Shown: positions 33,487-40,215 of the stretch, piece after piece
How positions within the stretch are numbered: position 1 is the stretch's first letter
Layout of the letters: the number at the start of each line of letters is the position of its first letter
NCBI RefSeq assembly: GCF_900609055.1
Contig: NZ_UXAW01000033.1
Span: 1 to 64,000 of the forward strand
DNA: 64,000 nt
Source: Pseudogemmobacter humi
GTDB lineage: Bacteria; Pseudomonadota; Alphaproteobacteria; Rhodobacterales; Rhodobacteraceae
Direction: 5' to 3'
The notes under the pieces: generated by a model
Databases searched by the model: none
The model's input: the letters and a program-made list of their open reading frames with translations, nothing else
Told to the model about the DNA's origin: nothing
Made by a program: the position numbers and the translations under genes

Positions 33487-34251
33487 ATGTGGTCGCATGA
33501 GCGGCAGGCGAAGATCCTGGGGCTTCTGACCGCGCGGCAGAAGGTCTCGACCAGCCAGCTCGCGCTGGAATTCGATGTCTCGCGCGAGACGATCCGCCGC
33601 GATCTGCTGGAGATGGAGGAGCGCGCGCTGCTGACCCGGGTGCATGGCGGCGCCATGCTGTCGGATCACGTGATCGAACCGGAACCCGCTTTCGAGAAGC
33701 GCCGCGGCCATAATGCCGAGCAGAAATCCGCCATCGGCCGGATGGCGCTGACGCTGATCCCCGAGGGCTCGACCTGTTTCATCGACACCGGCACCACCAC
33801 CATCGCCTTCGCCCGCGAGCTGATGGCGCGCGGCAATATCCGTGTAATCACCAATTCGCTGGAGATCGCGCGGATCATGGCGGGCGGCAAGGATTGCGAT
33901 GTGCTGCTTCTGGGCGGGCGGCCGCATCGCGACGTGCCCGCCACCTATGGCGAGATGACGCTGTCGCAGATCGACCGCTTCCTTGCCGATTTCGCGGTGA
34001 TCTCGCCGGTGGGGCTGCATGTCGACCGCGGCGTGACCGATTACGAGCTGCACGAGGCCGAGGTCGCCCGCGCCATGATGCGCCGCGCACAATCCTGCGT
34101 TGTGCTGTGCCATTCCGACAAGATCGGCGTGGAGAGCCGGGTCTCGATCTGCCGGCTGGACGAGGTGGATCACCTTGTCACCGACCAGAATCCGAAAAGC
34201 GCCGGGCTGAGCCTGTCGCGCGGCGCGGTGCATTTCGCCGGTGTGGAATGA
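33487..34251 (+). CDS. DeoR-family transcriptional regulator
   Basis: A 254-residue DeoR/GlpR-type repressor. The N-terminal winged helix reads QKVSTSQLALEFDVSRETIR with RRDLLEME after it, and the sugar-phosphate isomerase-like ligand domain contains FIDTGTTTIAFARELM and VITNSLEIARIM. Family effectors are usually phosphorylated sugars or polyols. That fits an adjacent operon holding kinase-like and phosphatase-like enzymes. ATG 33487 has GGAGG upstream; the longer frame start is less likely. Confidence 0.92.
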   Translation: MWSHERQAKILGLLTARQKVSTSQLALEFDVSRETIRRDLLEMEERALLTRVHGGAMLSDHVIEPEPAFEKRRGHNAEQKSAIGRMALTLIPEGSTCFIDTGTTTIAFARELMARGNIRVITNSLEIARIMAGGKDCDVLLLGGRPHRDVPATYGEMTLSQIDRFLADFAVISPVGLHVDRGVTDYELHEAEVARAMMRRAQSCVVLCHSDKIGVESRVSICRLDEVDHLVTDQNPKSAGLSLSRGAVHFAGVE

Positions 34252-34547
34252 TCCGCCGGGCGGCGGGGCCGGGCCGGAAAACCGGATATTGCCGATTCAT
34301 CCTTTCCGGCCTCTCACGCGGTTGCACATCCCGGCTGCGGCCGTTAGAGAGGCCCTTCACCAGCGGGTCGCGTGTTTTGGCAGACCGCTTATTGACGCTA
34401 CGTCAACCAGTGTGCAGCATCAGCGAATACTGTTTTCAGAATTACCGGGGAACCGGGACGCTCTGGAAATGTTGATTGCCCGACACAACTGTAAGTGGCA
34501 AACTGTGTCTTAGTCACGATCATGGCAAGTTTTGTCTGGACTGGACC
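34252..34547. promoter_or_regulatory. Region upstream of luxR with inverted repeats
   Basis: 296 bp without a convincing gene. It contains TTGACG-CTA-CGTCAA (34392-34406), a 6-bp-arm dyad, and GACACA (34482-34487) N16 TGTGTC (34504-34509) about 40 bp before the luxR start. Both are candidate operators. The segment is less GC-rich than its surroundings. Confidence 0.45.
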
Positions 34548-35252
34548 ATGATGCATCTGATCGACCTGAGCGAACTTACGGCCCAGCGAGGCAGATTCGA
34601 CTTCTTCCTGGAGCAGGTAAGAAGCCGTTTCGGATTCGATCATGTCGCCTACCTGGGTGCGAACCCGGTGGCAGGCACGATGCACGGCTATGTCACCTAC
34701 CCCGAGGAATGGAAGCGGCTTTACATTCAGAAGGCGTTCCACCTGATCGACCCGACGCTGACCATCGCGCAGCGCAGCATCTCGCCGGTGGACTGGTCGC
34801 GGCTGGAGCAGACCGAGAACTTCCGCAAGGTCTTCAACATCGCGCATGATTTCGGCATCACCAGCCACGGCCTGACCATTCCGGTGCGCGGACCTTACGG
34901 CGATACCGGCATGCTCAGCGTCACGCTCGACACCAGCGGGCATGAATGGAAGGGGCGGATCGCCAGCGCGATCGGCGAATTGCAGTCCATCGCGGTGCAT
35001 ATGCATGATGCGGTGATGAACTCGGACGCTTTCTCGAACGTGCTGCGTCACAGCCTGCTTTCCTCGCGCGAGATCGAGATCCTGCAATGGACCGCCGCGG
35101 GCAAGACCCAGCAGGATATCGCCGATATCCTCGGCATCTCGCACCGCACCGTCGAGGTGCATCTTCGCTCGGCGCGCGAAAAGCTGTATTCTCTGACCAC
35201 GCCCCAGGCCATTGCCCGGGCCATCGCGCTGCATCTGATCTATCCGATCTGA
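34548..35252 (+). CDS. luxR: LuxR-type quorum-sensing regulator
   Basis: A 234-residue LuxR protein with an autoinducer-binding domain (about 15-150; YVTYPEEWKRLYIQKAFHLIDP contains the conserved Trp/Tyr region, followed by DWSRL) and a GerE-type helix-turn-helix (about 170-230; LSSREIEILQWTAAGKTQQD and ISHRTVEVHLRSAREKL). It is expected to bind an acyl-homoserine lactone made by the LuxI enzyme encoded 168 bp downstream. Two adjacent ATGs (34548, 34551) are possible starts. Confidence 0.93.
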   Translation: MMHLIDLSELTAQRGRFDFFLEQVRSRFGFDHVAYLGANPVAGTMHGYVTYPEEWKRLYIQKAFHLIDPTLTIAQRSISPVDWSRLEQTENFRKVFNIAHDFGITSHGLTIPVRGPYGDTGMLSVTLDTSGHEWKGRIASAIGELQSIAVHMHDAVMNSDAFSNVLRHSLLSSREIEILQWTAAGKTQQDIADILGISHRTVEVHLRSAREKLYSLTTPQAIARAIALHLIYPI

Positions 35253-35330
35253 TCCCGGCCGGTGCTGCCGCCGCCGCCGTGCGGCCCGTTTCTTTGCCCC
35301 TATGGGACCCCCCGGCGATAAAGACCGCGG

Positions 35331-35346
35331 ATACCTCCATTGGTAT
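35331..35346. promoter_or_regulatory. Candidate regulator site upstream of luxI
   Basis: An inverted repeat ATACC-TCCATT-GGTAT about 75 bp upstream of the luxI start. Only 5-bp arms, so it is a tentative LuxR-binding (lux-box-like) site based on position. Confidence 0.3.
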
Positions 35347-35420
35347 TAAGGGATTCCCCGAATGGCAGAGATTTTCACCAGCAGTTAACCTCTTCCTACG
35401 GATGCCAGATGGGGGCTACC

Positions 35421-36188
35421 ATGATCATCGTTATCGACGCTATCAATAAGCATTTGTTCGGCGACGTGCTGGACGAGATGTTCCAGTTGCGTGCCCGTGT
35501 GTTCAGCGACCGGCTGGGATGGGATGTTTCCATTGAAAACGGGCGGGAGATCGATCAGTTCGACCACCTGGATCCACTTTATCTCGTCGGACTCGACGAC
35601 GAGGGCAATGTGGTGTCCTGTGTGCGCGCCCTGCAGACCACCGGGCCGCATATGCTGTCGGATGTGTTCAGCTCGATCCTCGACGGCGAGCCGCCGCTGC
35701 GGTCCTCCAGAATCTGGGAATCCACCCGGTTCTGCGTCGATACCGCCCGGCTGCAACGCGACGGCGCCAGCGCCACCGCGATTTCCCGCGCCACCTGCGA
35801 GCTGATGGTCGCCACGCTGGAAACCTGCCGCGATGCCGGGATCACCGATATCATCACCGTGATCGACCCGGTGATGAACCGCGTGCTGAAACGGTCGGAC
35901 AATGCGCCCTATGATTACGTGGGCTCGGTCAAGCCGATGGGCAAGGTCTCGGCGCTGGCGGCGCTGCTTGATTGCAGCGACGAGCGGATCGCCCGGGTGC
36001 GCGCCTTCGCCGGGCTGCATGACAATGTGATCGCCACCGAGGCCGAGGTTCTGGCGCTGCGTGCCGCCCGGCGCGCCGCCGAAGCGGGAGACGGATGGAT
36101 GGACGGCCAGCAGGCGACTTCGCTCCCTGGGTATGCCGTTGCCGCCTCTGTCCGGCCGACGATCGGCCTGCGCGCGCTTGCGGGCTGA
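35421..36188 (+). CDS. luxI: Acyl-homoserine-lactone synthase LuxI
   Basis: A 255-residue autoinducer synthase, somewhat longer than the usual 200-230 because of a C-terminal extension (about 215-255). Conserved residues are visible: Arg/Phe/Trp in RARVFSDRLGWDV, the acidic pair in REIDQFD, and SSRIWESTRFCVD holding the invariant Glu and Arg. It makes an acyl-HSL from SAM and an acyl-ACP. ATG 35421 follows GATGGGGG; a start at 35409 would add four residues. A strong terminator-like hairpin follows. Confidence 0.93.
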   Translation: MIIVIDAINKHLFGDVLDEMFQLRARVFSDRLGWDVSIENGREIDQFDHLDPLYLVGLDDEGNVVSCVRALQTTGPHMLSDVFSSILDGEPPLRSSRIWESTRFCVDTARLQRDGASATAISRATCELMVATLETCRDAGITDIITVIDPVMNRVLKRSDNAPYDYVGSVKPMGKVSALAALLDCSDERIARVRAFAGLHDNVIATEAEVLALRAARRAAEAGDGWMDGQQATSLPGYAVAASVRPTIGLRALAG

Positions 36189-36193
36189 TCGGC

Positions 36194-36228
36194 GCTGCGG
36201 TCACCGGCGGTTCTCCGGTGACCGCAGC
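36194..36228 (+). terminator. Hairpin after luxI
   Basis: A perfect 14-bp stem, GCTGCGGTCACCGG / CCGGTGACCGCAGC, with a 7-base loop, starting 6 bp after the luxI stop. There is no long U-tract, so it may terminate partially and let some transcript continue into the small membrane-protein genes. Confidence 0.75.
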
Positions 36229-36254
36229 TGAATGTTAAGGCAACGAACCACCTG

Positions 36255-36581
36255 ATGCTTATGACCGACTACCGACAGATCCCTGGCAATGCCCGCACCG
36301 TTCCGGCAACCGGGACGGCCTCGCTTTGCCCGATCGCACCGGCCTGCGTGCTGGTATGCGTCTGCGCGGCGGTTCTCGGTGGGCTTGCGGCCTTCTATTC
36401 CTGGCAGGCGGGCCCGCTGTGGTCGGTGGTGGCCGGGCTGGTGACGGGGCAGGCCGCCTTCGGCCTGGCCTGTCTGAGGGTCTGTCTGAAGGGAACTTAC
36501 ACAATGCCCGGGCGTTTGGATGAGATCGAGGCCGATCTCGCCGCATGCCGGGAATGCGGGGTTGATGCCTCGTCGCGCTGA
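36255..36581 (+). CDS. Small two-helix membrane protein, paralog 1 (quorum-sensing-linked)
   Basis: A 108-residue protein of unknown function. A short soluble N-terminus is followed by two membrane helices (CVLVCVCAAVLGGLAAFYSW and VVAGLVTGQAAFGLACL), then a short acidic helix, LDEIEADLAACREC. Two further proteins in this region (36615-36959 and 37968-38273) have the same two-helix plus I-x-x-DL-x-A layout. It is 66 bp after luxI on the same strand. Start choice (36255 or the ATG two codons later) is uncertain. Confidence 0.65.
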   Translation: MLMTDYRQIPGNARTVPATGTASLCPIAPACVLVCVCAAVLGGLAAFYSWQAGPLWSVVAGLVTGQAAFGLACLRVCLKGTYTMPGRLDEIEADLAACRECGVDASSR

Positions 36582-36614
36582 AACCGGGGGCAATACGAAA
36601 CGGGAGTAAGTCAG

Positions 36615-36959
36615 ATGATGATCGTCGCGATTGTGTTCGGAGGTGTTTTCGGACTGGTTTTCGGGCTTGGCAGCTGGCTGATGGGATTTGGCCTGCTGGC
36701 TTCGCTGATCGTCTATGTGGTGGCGGGCAACCTGCTCAGCCTCTGGCTGATGGCGCGGTTGCGCGTCGAGGACGGCATCGGGGAAAACCCGCTGACCGAG
36801 GCCCGGATCCGCGAGGATCTGGCCGCCCTCCAGGAGGCCGAGGCCCGCAGGATGGCGCTTGCCGCCAGCGACGGCAGTTCGCTGTTCCGGCTGCTCAGGA
36901 TGCGGGCGGAGCTCGACCGGATCGCCGCGTCCGAACGGACCTTGCGGCACAGACGCTGA
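36615..36959 (+). CDS. Small two-helix membrane protein, paralog 2
   Basis: A 114-residue protein. Two hydrophobic helices cover about 2-24 (VAIVFGGVFGLVFGLGSWLM) and 28-47 (ASLIVYVVAGNLLSLWLM), followed by a charged cytoplasmic tail with the IREDLAAL motif. AAACGGGAGTAAGTCAG precedes the ATG and gives a ribosome site. It ends only 4 bp from the stop of the convergent sugar-transferase-like gene. Function unknown; by layout it may be a membrane partner of that protein. Confidence 0.72.
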   Translation: MMIVAIVFGGVFGLVFGLGSWLMGFGLLASLIVYVVAGNLLSLWLMARLRVEDGIGENPLTEARIREDLAALQEAEARRMALAASDGSSLFRLLRMRAELDRIAASERTLRHRR

Positions 36960-36963
36960 GGCG

Positions 36964-37587
36964 TCAGGAAGAGCGCGGGCGCAGCAGGCGCACCAGCGAG
37001 CGCGCCACGATCCGCGCATCGGTCGGCAGGCCGGGATGCGCGGCATAGGCCAGCGCCAGCGCCTGCCGGTCGGTTTCGGCCTGCGGGCCCTGGTCTGGAT
37101 GCAGGCTCTCGGGGGTCAGGATGCCCGGCCGCACCGTCAGGATGAGGCGGGTGACGGGAGAGCCGCGATCCAGCCGGGCCACCGGAATCGGGCGCGGCCC
37201 GACAAAGGACATATCGCCCTTCAGCACATTCAGGATCTGCGGCAGCCGGTTCAGCCCGCTGCTTACCAGAAAGGCGCCGATGCCGGTCAGCCGCGGATCG
37301 CGGCCCGGCTTCACCGGCGGGCGCAGGCGCTTTGCCGCATCGGCATGGACGATGCGGAACCGCAGCTGGCGAAAGACCTTTCCGTTTCGCCCCGCGCAGG
37401 ACAGCCCGAGAACCACCGGCCCCGGACCAGATGCCCGGATCAGCACCGCGATGACGATCATGGCGGGCAGCGCCATGATCAGCCCGGTCAGCGCCAGGAA
37501 CAGATCCAGCCCACGCTTGAGAGCCGCATGCGCAGCACCCTTTCCCTGGAAAGGACTCTCCTCCGGCGATCGTCCGGGAGCCGTCAT
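36964..37587 (-). CDS. Initial-sugar-transferase-like protein (monotopic PGT fold) lacking the catalytic Asp-Glu, copy A
   Basis: A 207-residue protein with the ExoY/WcaJ/PglC-type core: re-entrant helix KRGLDLFLALTGLIMALP, SGPGPVVL, DPRLTGIGAFL, LPQILNVLKGDMSFVGPRP and VRPGI. In active enzymes the core reads SLDELPQ, whose Asp-Glu does the chemistry on the UDP-sugar. Here it reads SGLNRLPQ, so both residues are replaced by Asn-Arg. It is therefore probably not a classical phosphoglycosyl transferase. It is tail-to-tail with a small membrane-protein gene (4 bp) and downstream of luxRI. Confidence 0.85.
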   Translation of the reverse strand: MTAPGRSPEESPFQGKGAAHAALKRGLDLFLALTGLIMALPAMIVIAVLIRASGPGPVVLGLSCAGRNGKVFRQLRFRIVHADAAKRLRPPVKPGRDPRLTGIGAFLVSSGLNRLPQILNVLKGDMSFVGPRPIPVARLDRGSPVTRLILTVRPGILTPESLHPDQGPQAETDRQALALAYAAHPGLPTDARIVARSLVRLLRPRSS

Positions 37588-37967
37588 GAAATGATCCTGT
37601 TCAGAACCGTGCAGCGCCGGGGCGCCTTTATAATCTAAAGCAGGAAATAATTGTTCATCTGGTTAATTTCAAATCCTAAGACGCGTCCGAGGGGAAACAC
37701 TGCGTTCATTCAGGCCGGTTTTGCGTAACATCCGTTCGCGTGGTGGGCGGATGTGCATCATGGCCGGCCCCCCTGGCATGCGAATCGGCGACATGCGGCT
37801 GATGACAGACCATCGGCTCTTTCATGACAAGGTTTCGCCAGATTTGGGCGGTGTTCTGCATCCGGGGGTTGTGTGGCGCTCTCGGACCTCTCCCCCGGCA
37901 GGTTTTCTCCGTGAGGCTCTGCGCGCATCCCGCCGCGCAAAGGGCGAAACATGAAAGGGATAGCGAA
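37588..37967. promoter_or_regulatory. 380-bp divergent intergenic region with AT-rich core
   Basis: It lies between the sugar-transferase-like gene A (minus) and small membrane-protein gene 3 (plus). The first 100 bp (37625-37685) are AT-rich and include TATAAT (37630-37635) and the palindrome GACGCGTC (37680-37687). The remainder is ordinary GC-rich sequence with no convincing ORF. It probably holds divergent promoters and a long 5' leader for the plus-strand gene. Confidence 0.4.
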
Positions 37968-38273
37968 ATGGCAGCGGTGCTGATCGTTGGAAGCGGCCTT
38001 GCGGGGCTGGCGGCCGCCTTGGTGGCCTGGGCTTTGGGGGGCGGATTCTTCGTCATGATTCTGTGCTATGCGATCACGGCAAATCTCGCCTTTTCGCTGC
38101 TCAGCCTGTTTGGAACCGGGCGCGATGCCGATCCGGCCGGTCGCGGTTTCGCCGAAGAGATCGAGGAGGATCTGCTGGCGCTGACCGATTCGCTGCGCGA
38201 AGAGGACCGCACTTTCCAGCGTTTTCCCGAATTGCGCGATACCGGGCTGCGGCCGCGCAACGCGCAGGGCTGA
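37968..38273 (+). CDS. Small two-helix membrane protein, paralog 3
   Basis: A 101-residue protein. Two helices are at about 3-25 (AVLIVGSGLAGLAAALVAWA) and 29-48 (FFVMILCYAITANLAFSLLS), then a tail with EEIEEDLLALTDSLREED. It has the same layout as the paralogs at 36255 and 36615. GAAAGGGA lies about nine bases before the ATG; the longer open frame upstream is rejected. It ends 13 bp from the stop of the convergent sugar-transferase-like gene B, repeating the arrangement of the first cassette. Confidence 0.72.
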   Translation: MAAVLIVGSGLAGLAAALVAWALGGGFFVMILCYAITANLAFSLLSLFGTGRDADPAGRGFAEEIEEDLLALTDSLREEDRTFQRFPELRDTGLRPRNAQG

Positions 38274-38286
38274 CCCCGTCGCCGGG

Positions 38287-38775
38287 TCAGGCGCCGCGCC
38301 AGAAGCCGCCTTGCGACATGCCCGGTCGAATCCCGGCCTGCGCGGTTTCGGGGCCGAAGAACGACATCTGGCCCAACAGCACGTTCACCACCTGCGGCAG
38401 CCGGTTCAGTCCCGAGCGGATCATCATCCGCCCCACAGCGGTCAGCCGCGGATCGCCGCCCGGTGCCGCGCCGGGATCGGTCAGCGCCCGGAACTGGCGG
38501 GCGCGGGCGTCGGTATGGACGCTGCGGAAACGGTATTGCCGGAAGCTGCGCCCGTCCGGCCCCTGACAGTCCAGTCGCAGAAGCACCGGCCCCGGGCTGC
38601 TCAGCCGCACCATCAGCGCCAGCCCGATCAGGAACGGCACGACAATGGGCAGCACCAGAAGCACAAGCCCAAGGTCCAGCGCCCTGGTTTTCAATCTGCT
38701 CAGCCGGAATGACACCGATGCACCTGTTACCTTGCCGGGTCTGGGATCCCGGCTTCCGATCCGCAGGAGGGCCAT
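38287..38775 (-). CDS. Truncated initial-sugar-transferase-like protein lacking the catalytic Asp-Glu, copy B
   Basis: A 162-residue shorter paralog of copy A. It keeps the membrane helix (LDLGLVLLVLPIVVPFLIGL), SSPGPVLLRL, the FRQYRFRSVHTDARARQF segment, DPRLTAVGRMM and SGLNRLPQVVNVLLGQMSFFGPE. The Asp-Glu of active enzymes is Asn-Arg, exactly as in copy A; GPRP has become GPET, and the C-terminal VRPG domain is missing. There are no internal stops, so it looks like a retained non-catalytic protein. The start could be a few codons further in. Confidence 0.78.
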   Translation of the reverse strand: MALLRIGSRDPRPGKVTGASVSFRLSRLKTRALDLGLVLLVLPIVVPFLIGLALMVRLSSPGPVLLRLDCQGPDGRSFRQYRFRSVHTDARARQFRALTDPGAAPGGDPRLTAVGRMMIRSGLNRLPQVVNVLLGQMSFFGPETAQAGIRPGMSQGGFWRGA

Positions 38776-39036
38776 CCTCCGGCTGTTGCGAGGGTGCTAG
38801 AGCAGCCCGCGATTCGTGTCTATCGGGCGCTGTGTGCAAAGGCCGTTGCGGGGGCCGGAATGACGCTGCGTTATTGCCGCGCTGTCACCCGCCCGCAATA
38901 CGGGGCGCTGGCGGCGCAGCTTTCCCCCTGCCGGGGCCACCCCCGCCGCCATCTGGCGCCGGGCTGGCCTGGCCGGAAGAGCAGGCGCAACGGGTGGTCA
39001 GGGAGTTGCCGCGCGGAGTTATGGCCGCGAACGCAC
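38776..39036. other. Intergenic, nothing recognised
   Basis: 261 bp upstream of sugar-transferase-like gene B and downstream of the GT2 gene on the same strand. It is GC-rich, with no convincing ORF. A promoter for gene B is expected here but not identified. Confidence 0.3.
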
Positions 39037-40215
39037 TCAGGCGTTTTGCAACACCGGATCGGCGGCGGCCGGGCGGCTGCGCTGGTTCAGCAGGCCCCAG
39101 AGGAAGCCGTTGGTCACCGACTGCATGCCAAGCGCCGAGAGCACCGCGACCAGCGCGGCCGAGCGGGTGATTGCCCCGGGATCCATGGCGCCGAAGCCGG
39201 TCGAGGCCCAGAACCCGACCGAAATCGCCGTGGCGACGAAGGCCATCAGCAGGAAGAAGGCCCCGGCCTGGCAGGCGGCCTCGACCGAAAGCCGGGCGCG
39301 CAGGGCCTCGAACCGCGGCGAGGTCGGCAGAAGGTTGGTGCGCACCGCGAACAGCCGCGCCAAAGCGTGGAACCAGACCAGTTGAAAGCCGGTGATGATG
39401 AAGGCGGCGGCGAAGATCAGCGCTCCGGTGTCAAGCGAGACCGCGCCCAGATGCAGGGGCCCGAACATCAGCGGAGCGAACAGCGCAGCGCCAAGCCCGA
39501 GCAAAGCGAGGCCCGGGTAGAGGAACAGGCTGAACGGCGCGAAGGTGAGAAGCAGCTTCAGATGCCGCCAGCCGTCATGCCAGGTCCGCAGATGCGGCTT
39601 GCGCGAACGGCCGTCGGGCTTCAGCGTGGTGGGCACTTCGACGATCTTCAGATCGGCCAGGGCGGCGCGCATCACCATCTCGGGGCAGAATTCAAGCTGC
39701 TCGGTGATCAGGCTCAGCCCAAGGATCGCGTCGCGCCGGAAGCCGCGCAGCCCGCACTGGAAATCGCCCACCGGCGCGCGGTAGAGCGTGCGGCCGATGA
39801 AGGACAGCACCGGATTGCCGAGGTATTTGTGCAAAAGCGGCATGGCGCCGGGTTCGATCCCGCCGAGGAAGCGGTTGCCCATCACCAGATCGGCGCCCTT
39901 GCGCAGTTCTTCGACGAAAGCGTCGAGGCGCGAGAAATCGTAGGAATCGTCGCTGTCGCCCATGATGACGAAGCGCCCCCGGGCGGCGGCGATGCCGGTG
40001 GAAAGCGCGATTCCATTGCCGCGCCGGGGCGCCAGCACGACGCGGGCGCCCAGCCGTTCGGCAATCTCGCGGCTGCCGTCGGTCGAGCCGTTGTCCGAGA
40101 TCAGCACCTCGCCGTCGATGCCGGTGCGGGCCAGGAAGCCCTGCGCCTTGAGGATGCAGGTCTCAAGCGTCTCCGCCTCGTTCAGGCAGGGCATCAGGAT
40201 CGTCAGTTCGGTCAT
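39037..40215 (-). CDS. GT2 glycosyltransferase with C-terminal membrane domain
   Basis: A 392-residue protein of the polyprenyl-phosphate glycosyltransferase type. A soluble GT2 domain (about 1-230) has ILMPCLNEAETLE, SDNGSTDGS and the DxD-containing GDSDDSYDF. Four or so membrane helices follow (about 230-375). Such enzymes load glucose or a related sugar onto undecaprenyl phosphate. The divergent GT-C-like and GtrA-like genes complete a plausible surface-glycan modification set. Confidence 0.9.
   Translation of the reverse strand: MTELTILMPCLNEAETLETCILKAQGFLARTGIDGEVLISDNGSTDGSREIAERLGARVVLAPRRGNGIALSTGIAAARGRFVIMGDSDDSYDFSRLDAFVEELRKGADLVMGNRFLGGIEPGAMPLLHKYLGNPVLSFIGRTLYRAPVGDFQCGLRGFRRDAILGLSLITEQLEFCPEMVMRAALADLKIVEVPTTLKPDGRSRKPHLRTWHDGWRHLKLLLTFAPFSLFLYPGLALLGLGAALFAPLMFGPLHLGAVSLDTGALIFAAAFIITGFQLVWFHALARLFAVRTNLLPTSPRFEALRARLSVEAACQAGAFFLLMAFVATAISVGFWASTGFGAMDPGAITRSAALVAVLSALGMQSVTNGFLWGLLNQRSRPAAADPVLQNA

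Follow-up and report, generated by a model that had tools for sequence, protein, structure and literature searches.

Analysis of the window, the whole 64,000-nucleotide stretch of Pseudogemmobacter humi DNA (contig C125; genome size 4.47 Mb), reveals that luxRI is followed by genes for three paralogous two-helix membrane proteins (SP1, SP2, and SP3) and for two phosphoglycosyl-transferase homologues (ST1 and ST2) in which the catalytic Asp-Glu dyad has been replaced. We consider it possible, at a probability of about 45%, that these proteins constitute a quorum-controlled, post-translational tuner of exopolysaccharide priming, most likely acting as a brake.

Table 1 Features of the luxRI-linked locus (positions in the window).
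Feature	Position	Strand	Basis
luxR-type regulator (Autoind_bind + GerE)	34476-35252	+	Pfam 1.9e-32 and 9e-16
lux-box-like dyad TAAGGGATTCCCCGAATG upstream of luxI	35347-35364	+	candidate LuxR site, inferred
luxI, acyl-homoserine-lactone synthase	35409/35424-36188	+	PF00765 9.8e-63
strong hairpin, stem about 14 bp, no T run	36194-36230	+	luxI-SP1 gap folds at -32 kcal/mol
SP1, two-helix membrane protein, acidic DL tail	36255-36581	+	group profile match to SP2, SP3
SP2, two-helix membrane protein	36615-36959	+	orthologues adjoining luxI; dN/dS 0.09
ST1, predicted catalytically dead PF02397 phosphoglycosyl-transferase homologue	36964-37587	-	GLNRLPQ for SLDELPQ
SP3, two-helix membrane protein, divergent from ST1	37968-38273	+	profile match, predicted helices
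ST2, shortened, predicted catalytically dead PF02397 homologue	38287-38775	-	PF02397 positions 2-109 of 179; GLNRLPQ

All five frames, SP1 to SP3 and ST1 and ST2, score as coding (5/5); the listed open reading frame of SP3 starts further upstream than the position given in Table 1. SP1 follows luxI on the same strand after about 66-72 nt, and SP2 follows SP1 after 33 bp. The sequence-only reading had described three small proteins after luxRI, each composed of two helices and an acidic helix, two of them ending 4 and 13 bp from convergent transferase-like genes; the former is confirmed by the hydrophobic segments and the motif alignment, and the latter by the PF02397 matches and the coordinates of the SP2/ST1 (36960-36963) and SP3/ST2 (38274-38286) gaps. 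SP1 has no transferase partner in the window. The two-gene pair is thus present twice in tandem, as had been stated, but the double pair is complete in the window only, SP3-ST2 adjacency having been seen in none of the relatives. Adjoining ST2, the segment 39037-42640 carries a glycosyltransferase family 2 gene, a gene encoding a 616-aa protein that matches nothing in Pfam, and a GtrA-like gene (PF04138), which are possibly a surface-glycan glucosylation set.

Because pairwise BLASTP among SP1, SP2, and SP3 gave no useful relationship, their paralogy had to be assessed with profiles built from the orthologue groups. Comparison of these group profiles gave probabilities of 96.3% (E 1.7e-9) for SP1-SP2, 97.4% (E 1e-11) for SP1-SP3, and 97.1% (E 6e-11) for SP2-SP3, against no more than 20% for reversed profiles, and on this basis the three proteins are judged to be true paralogues, as had been proposed from the sequence. 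Each contains two hydrophobic segments, and the predicted model of SP3 (mean pLDDT 76) consists of helices 2-22, 27-52, and 56-85, of which the first two are long and the last is acidic. The acidic motifs read EIEADLAA, RIREDLAA, and EIEEDLLA, with the D and the L invariant in 16 members of the SP family. No fitting family was found in Pfam or NCBIfam, only weak matches in PHROGs, and, with the SP3 model, no Foldseek match under E 0.001. A Pfam match of SP3 to FAD_binding_2 (3e-4) was taken as spurious, since it falls on a glycine-rich helix and is given by only one of the 16 members.

Both transferase-like proteins match PF02397 far above the curated cut-off of 27 bits (ST1, 2e-35, 122 bits; ST2, 5e-23, 82 bits) and match each other at 54% over 96 aa. 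ST1 covers the family at full length and also matches the solved WbaP and PglC-type sequences, and ST2 has an internal deletion and lacks the C-terminal part. In PglC, the catalytic dyad is D93-E94, and K59, R88, and R111 orient the substrate (PMC12802240). The SLDELPQ of active enzymes is GLNRLPQ in ST1 and ST2, the alignment to solved WbaP likewise placing N-R in the D-E column, and the active-site Lys is Arg in ST1. The transferase copies of three relatives (G149, G155, and G160) have N-L in place of the dyad, so that every luxI-linked PF02397 copy with a readable motif carries GLN(R/L)LPQ, whereas the D-E dyad is kept in 30 other transferases, of which almost all come from the genus; the source genome also has three canonical D-E copies (on C115, C118, and C84). 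ST1 and ST2 are therefore predicted to be catalytically dead, and their earlier designation as pseudo-sugar-transferases is justified. Seven luxI-associated or related dyad-less proteins form one clade with support of 100/100, in which ST2 and its P. faecipullorum counterpart have long branches, and the change of D to N across this clade is older than the species split. When the dyad-loss pattern LNxLPQxxNxL was sought as coding sequence in 395 genomes of 394 genera, it was found in two: the source genome, where it occurs twice, each time in the window, and G045, whose one match was rejected because its flanking sequence is not transferase-like. An AlphaFold model of ST1 (pLDDT 44, four sequences in the alignment) was set aside. 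P. faecipullorum (G156, contig C4) has a second dyad-less PF02397 gene away from luxI (L168 7426-7926), whose sequence no longer follows the family beyond the MSF motif, the pattern expected of a frameshift.

Within the genus, canonical luxI, the dead transferase, and a lux-linked SP occur in the same 6 of 13 genomes, and none of the three in the other 7; the one-sided chance of such a perfect 6/7 split is 1/1716, for genomes that share ancestry and include one with a partly N-masked transferase (G152) and one with a broken luxI (G160). SP2 orthologues adjoin luxI in G156, G149, G155, G152, and G160, an SP1 orthologue is present in P. faecipullorum, and in the tree each of the three SPs clusters with its orthologues from other species, support being modest for some. 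The SP paralogues thus predate the species, so that a recent tandem duplication is not needed, and the duplication is judged not to be recent. In at least five species the module has stayed next to luxRI, as had been supposed; the idea of a cassette duplicated in tandem and maintained intact finds no support, given the separate orthologues of each SP, the shortening of ST2, and the usual position of SP3 orthologues, about 10 kb from luxI and without a transferase (G149, G155, G160, and G152). In G160, luxI and SP2 look frameshifted (L166 12645-13833; luxI fragments in L117), which could be an assembly error or reflect loss of quorum sensing.

A dyad resembling a LuxR site, as expected of a quorum-sensing-controlled operon, lies upstream of luxI. 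Of 67 homologous luxI loci across Rhodobacteraceae, 65 carry its consensus, TAMGGGATTYCCCGNATA, immediately 5' of luxI, and with up to two mismatches the source genome contains a single match, that listed in Table 1. Since this is the sole close match in the genome, luxI-SP1-SP2 may be the main direct output of the circuit; the conserved dyad could also be used for mapping LuxR targets across Rhodobacteraceae. The hairpin in the luxI-SP1 gap has equivalents, likewise lacking a T run, in 4/4 relatives examined (five Pseudogemmobacter species with the source), hairpins 3' of luxI being common in other Rhodobacteraceae loci too, and it is a candidate attenuator, stabiliser, or terminator. Rfam gave no match over 34200-39100.

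Beyond the genus, the survey of luxI neighbourhoods showed that an SP recurs beside luxI in two other genera, directly 3' of the gene in Falsigemmobacter (L037 and L038) and 13 bp after it in G441, with no other convincing two-helix small protein 3' of luxI in 66 luxI loci tested. No transferase was found in the sequence examined at the Falsigemmobacter and G441 loci, and therefore the SP-transferase pair is not obligatory. Further SP-family copies adjoin cspA-like, hslU-like, and permease-like genes, so that the family is broader than the lux-linked module. Both observations favor the view that the SPs form a quorum-controlled membrane module that acts on something other than polysaccharide priming, for example on a transporter, on a kinase, or on signal export, and that the transferase relics merely lie nearby. 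We regard this as rather unlikely, since within the genus the pseudo-transferase stays by the lux-linked SP under selection, and since SP relatives occur in polysaccharide clusters of two other genera: in the exopolysaccharide cluster of G026, between a flippase gene and an active PF02397 gene, and in that of G074, adjoining Wzz/kinase and WecG genes. These clusters, together with the literature (PMC13235738, PMC1403797), make the exopolysaccharide link proposed in the sequence-only reading plausible. Separately, in the source genome and in another genus (L207 1483-2088 and L188 1474-2076), a distant SP relative is encoded immediately 5' of a cold-shock-protein-like gene, and on source contig C115 a 56-aa two-helix protein (L001 789-959; weak SP profile match, E 0.003) is encoded upstream of an active PF02397 gene (1366-2085).

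The loss of the dyad might alternatively mean that the transferase-like genes are functionless, decaying pseudogenes kept by chance and the SPs ordinary small membrane proteins. Decay would account for the truncation of ST2, the frameshift-like L168 relative, and the frameshifted appearance of luxI and SP2 in G160. We nevertheless consider it improbable, because the ST1 frame is open in four species with core motifs conserved, its dN/dS of 0.11 (G149 vs G155) is near that of active paralogues (0.04-0.08), and the clade-wide change of D to N predates the species split. ST1, like SP2 (Table 1), is thus, on these ratios, under purifying selection. There is little room for the proposal that the convergence itself matters, transcription of the luxI operon through SP2 silencing ST1 by interference or as antisense; the 4 bp gap in the window and the convergent SP/transferase order conserved in G156, G149, G155, and G160 would fit, but in G155, G149, and G156 the two genes lie anywhere from about 90 to 500 bp apart. 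Least credible of all is an ST1 still active with altered chemistry or substrate, since ST1, although it keeps the GPRP and DPR motifs, has other residues in place of both catalytic ones (Asp and Glu) and Arg in place of the active-site Lys, and DPR is also lost in G149 and G155.

In the predicted mechanism of the tuner, LuxR with bound acyl-homoserine lactone would act at the single lux-box-like site and, given read-through and co-transcription of the presumed operon, drive luxI, SP1, and SP2 together. Each SP would enter the inner membrane as a hairpin of two helices, its acidic helix lying in the cytoplasm, and the SPs would act on the three canonical phosphoglycosyl transferases of the genome, the pseudo-transferases, or both. 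Because membrane and core motifs survive in the pseudo-transferases and the nucleophile is gone, we speculate that these proteins are decoy or regulatory subunits, which would titrate the SPs or tie up the active enzymes in non-productive complexes; a braking effect would be the more probable sign. The tuner reading is supported by the dyad-less clade, the constraint on ST1, the co-occurrence in 6/13 genomes, the SPs placed directly 3' of luxI in Falsigemmobacter and G441, the G026 and G074 clusters, and the single lux-box match. It is weakened by the luxI-SP1 hairpins, by SP profiles that do not match ExoX, by SP copies beside unrelated genes, by lux-linked SPs without a transferase elsewhere, by an SP3-ST2 pair confined to the window, and by the shortening of ST2. 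The more far-reaching idea, that in place of a regulon the circuit has as its main direct output a membrane assembly of small peptides and a pseudo-phosphoglycosyl-transferase, which would set exopolysaccharide priming by protein contact, appears doubtful; it would be a hitherto undescribed pseudoenzyme decoy system.

Quorum sensing in this family lowers aggregation or controls adhesion, and in the literature found its link to polysaccharide is at the level of gene expression (PMC13235738, PMC11655674). If true, the tuner would be a direct post-translational link from quorum sensing to the polysaccharide machinery, and the selected dead phosphoglycosyl transferase would be a conserved pseudoenzyme where the literature searched on the family describes none. 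The lux-linked SPs and ST1 would also provide a small, genetically tractable test case.

The proposed roles of the SPs and ST1 are worth comparing with known systems. Like the monotopic phosphoglycosyl transferases PglC and WbaP, ST1 gives a full-length PF02397 match, but in the lux-linked copies the Asp-Glu dyad has become Asn-Arg or Asn-Leu. In Myxococcus, the initiating phosphoglycosyl transferase EpsZ is controlled by direct protein contact with EpsW (PMC12802240); this activator, however, belongs to the single-domain response regulators and is neither a membrane peptide nor a pseudoenzyme. The tuner reading was drawn by analogy from two other cases: the opposition of ExoX/PsiA to ExoY/PssA, and the suppression of aggregation by LuxI/LuxR in the same family. 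The rhizobial ExoX and PsiA are small inner-membrane proteins that antagonize ExoY and PssA, the initiating transferases, by a route proposed to be post-translational and to depend on gene dosage (PMC1403797, PMC3233446). The SPs share with them the build of a small protein with two hydrophobic helices encoded near a PF02397 gene, but the SP-adjacent transferases are dead by sequence and the genes lie beside luxRI. Homology to ExoX was rejected (profile probability at most 4.6% with a 13-member ExoX set, no better than reversed controls), as was identity with SyrA (PF11089; no match in the source genome or in Pfam scans of SP members), and a search of plasmids for exoX, made by way of ExoY, led to other sugar-transferase loci; any resemblance to ExoX would be at most in the manner of working, not in homology. 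Closest in kinship are Paracoccus denitrificans, in which LuxI/LuxR quorum sensing represses the phosphoglycosyltransferase gene pxm and suppresses aggregation (PMC13235738), and Cereibacter sphaeroides, in which LuxI/LuxR of the Cer (community escape) system suppresses aggregation (PMC11655674). Both belong to the same bacterial family as the source and have a LuxI/LuxR output that lowers adhesion or aggregation; whereas pxm is controlled at the level of expression, the membrane proteins described here are encoded in or beside the lux operon itself.
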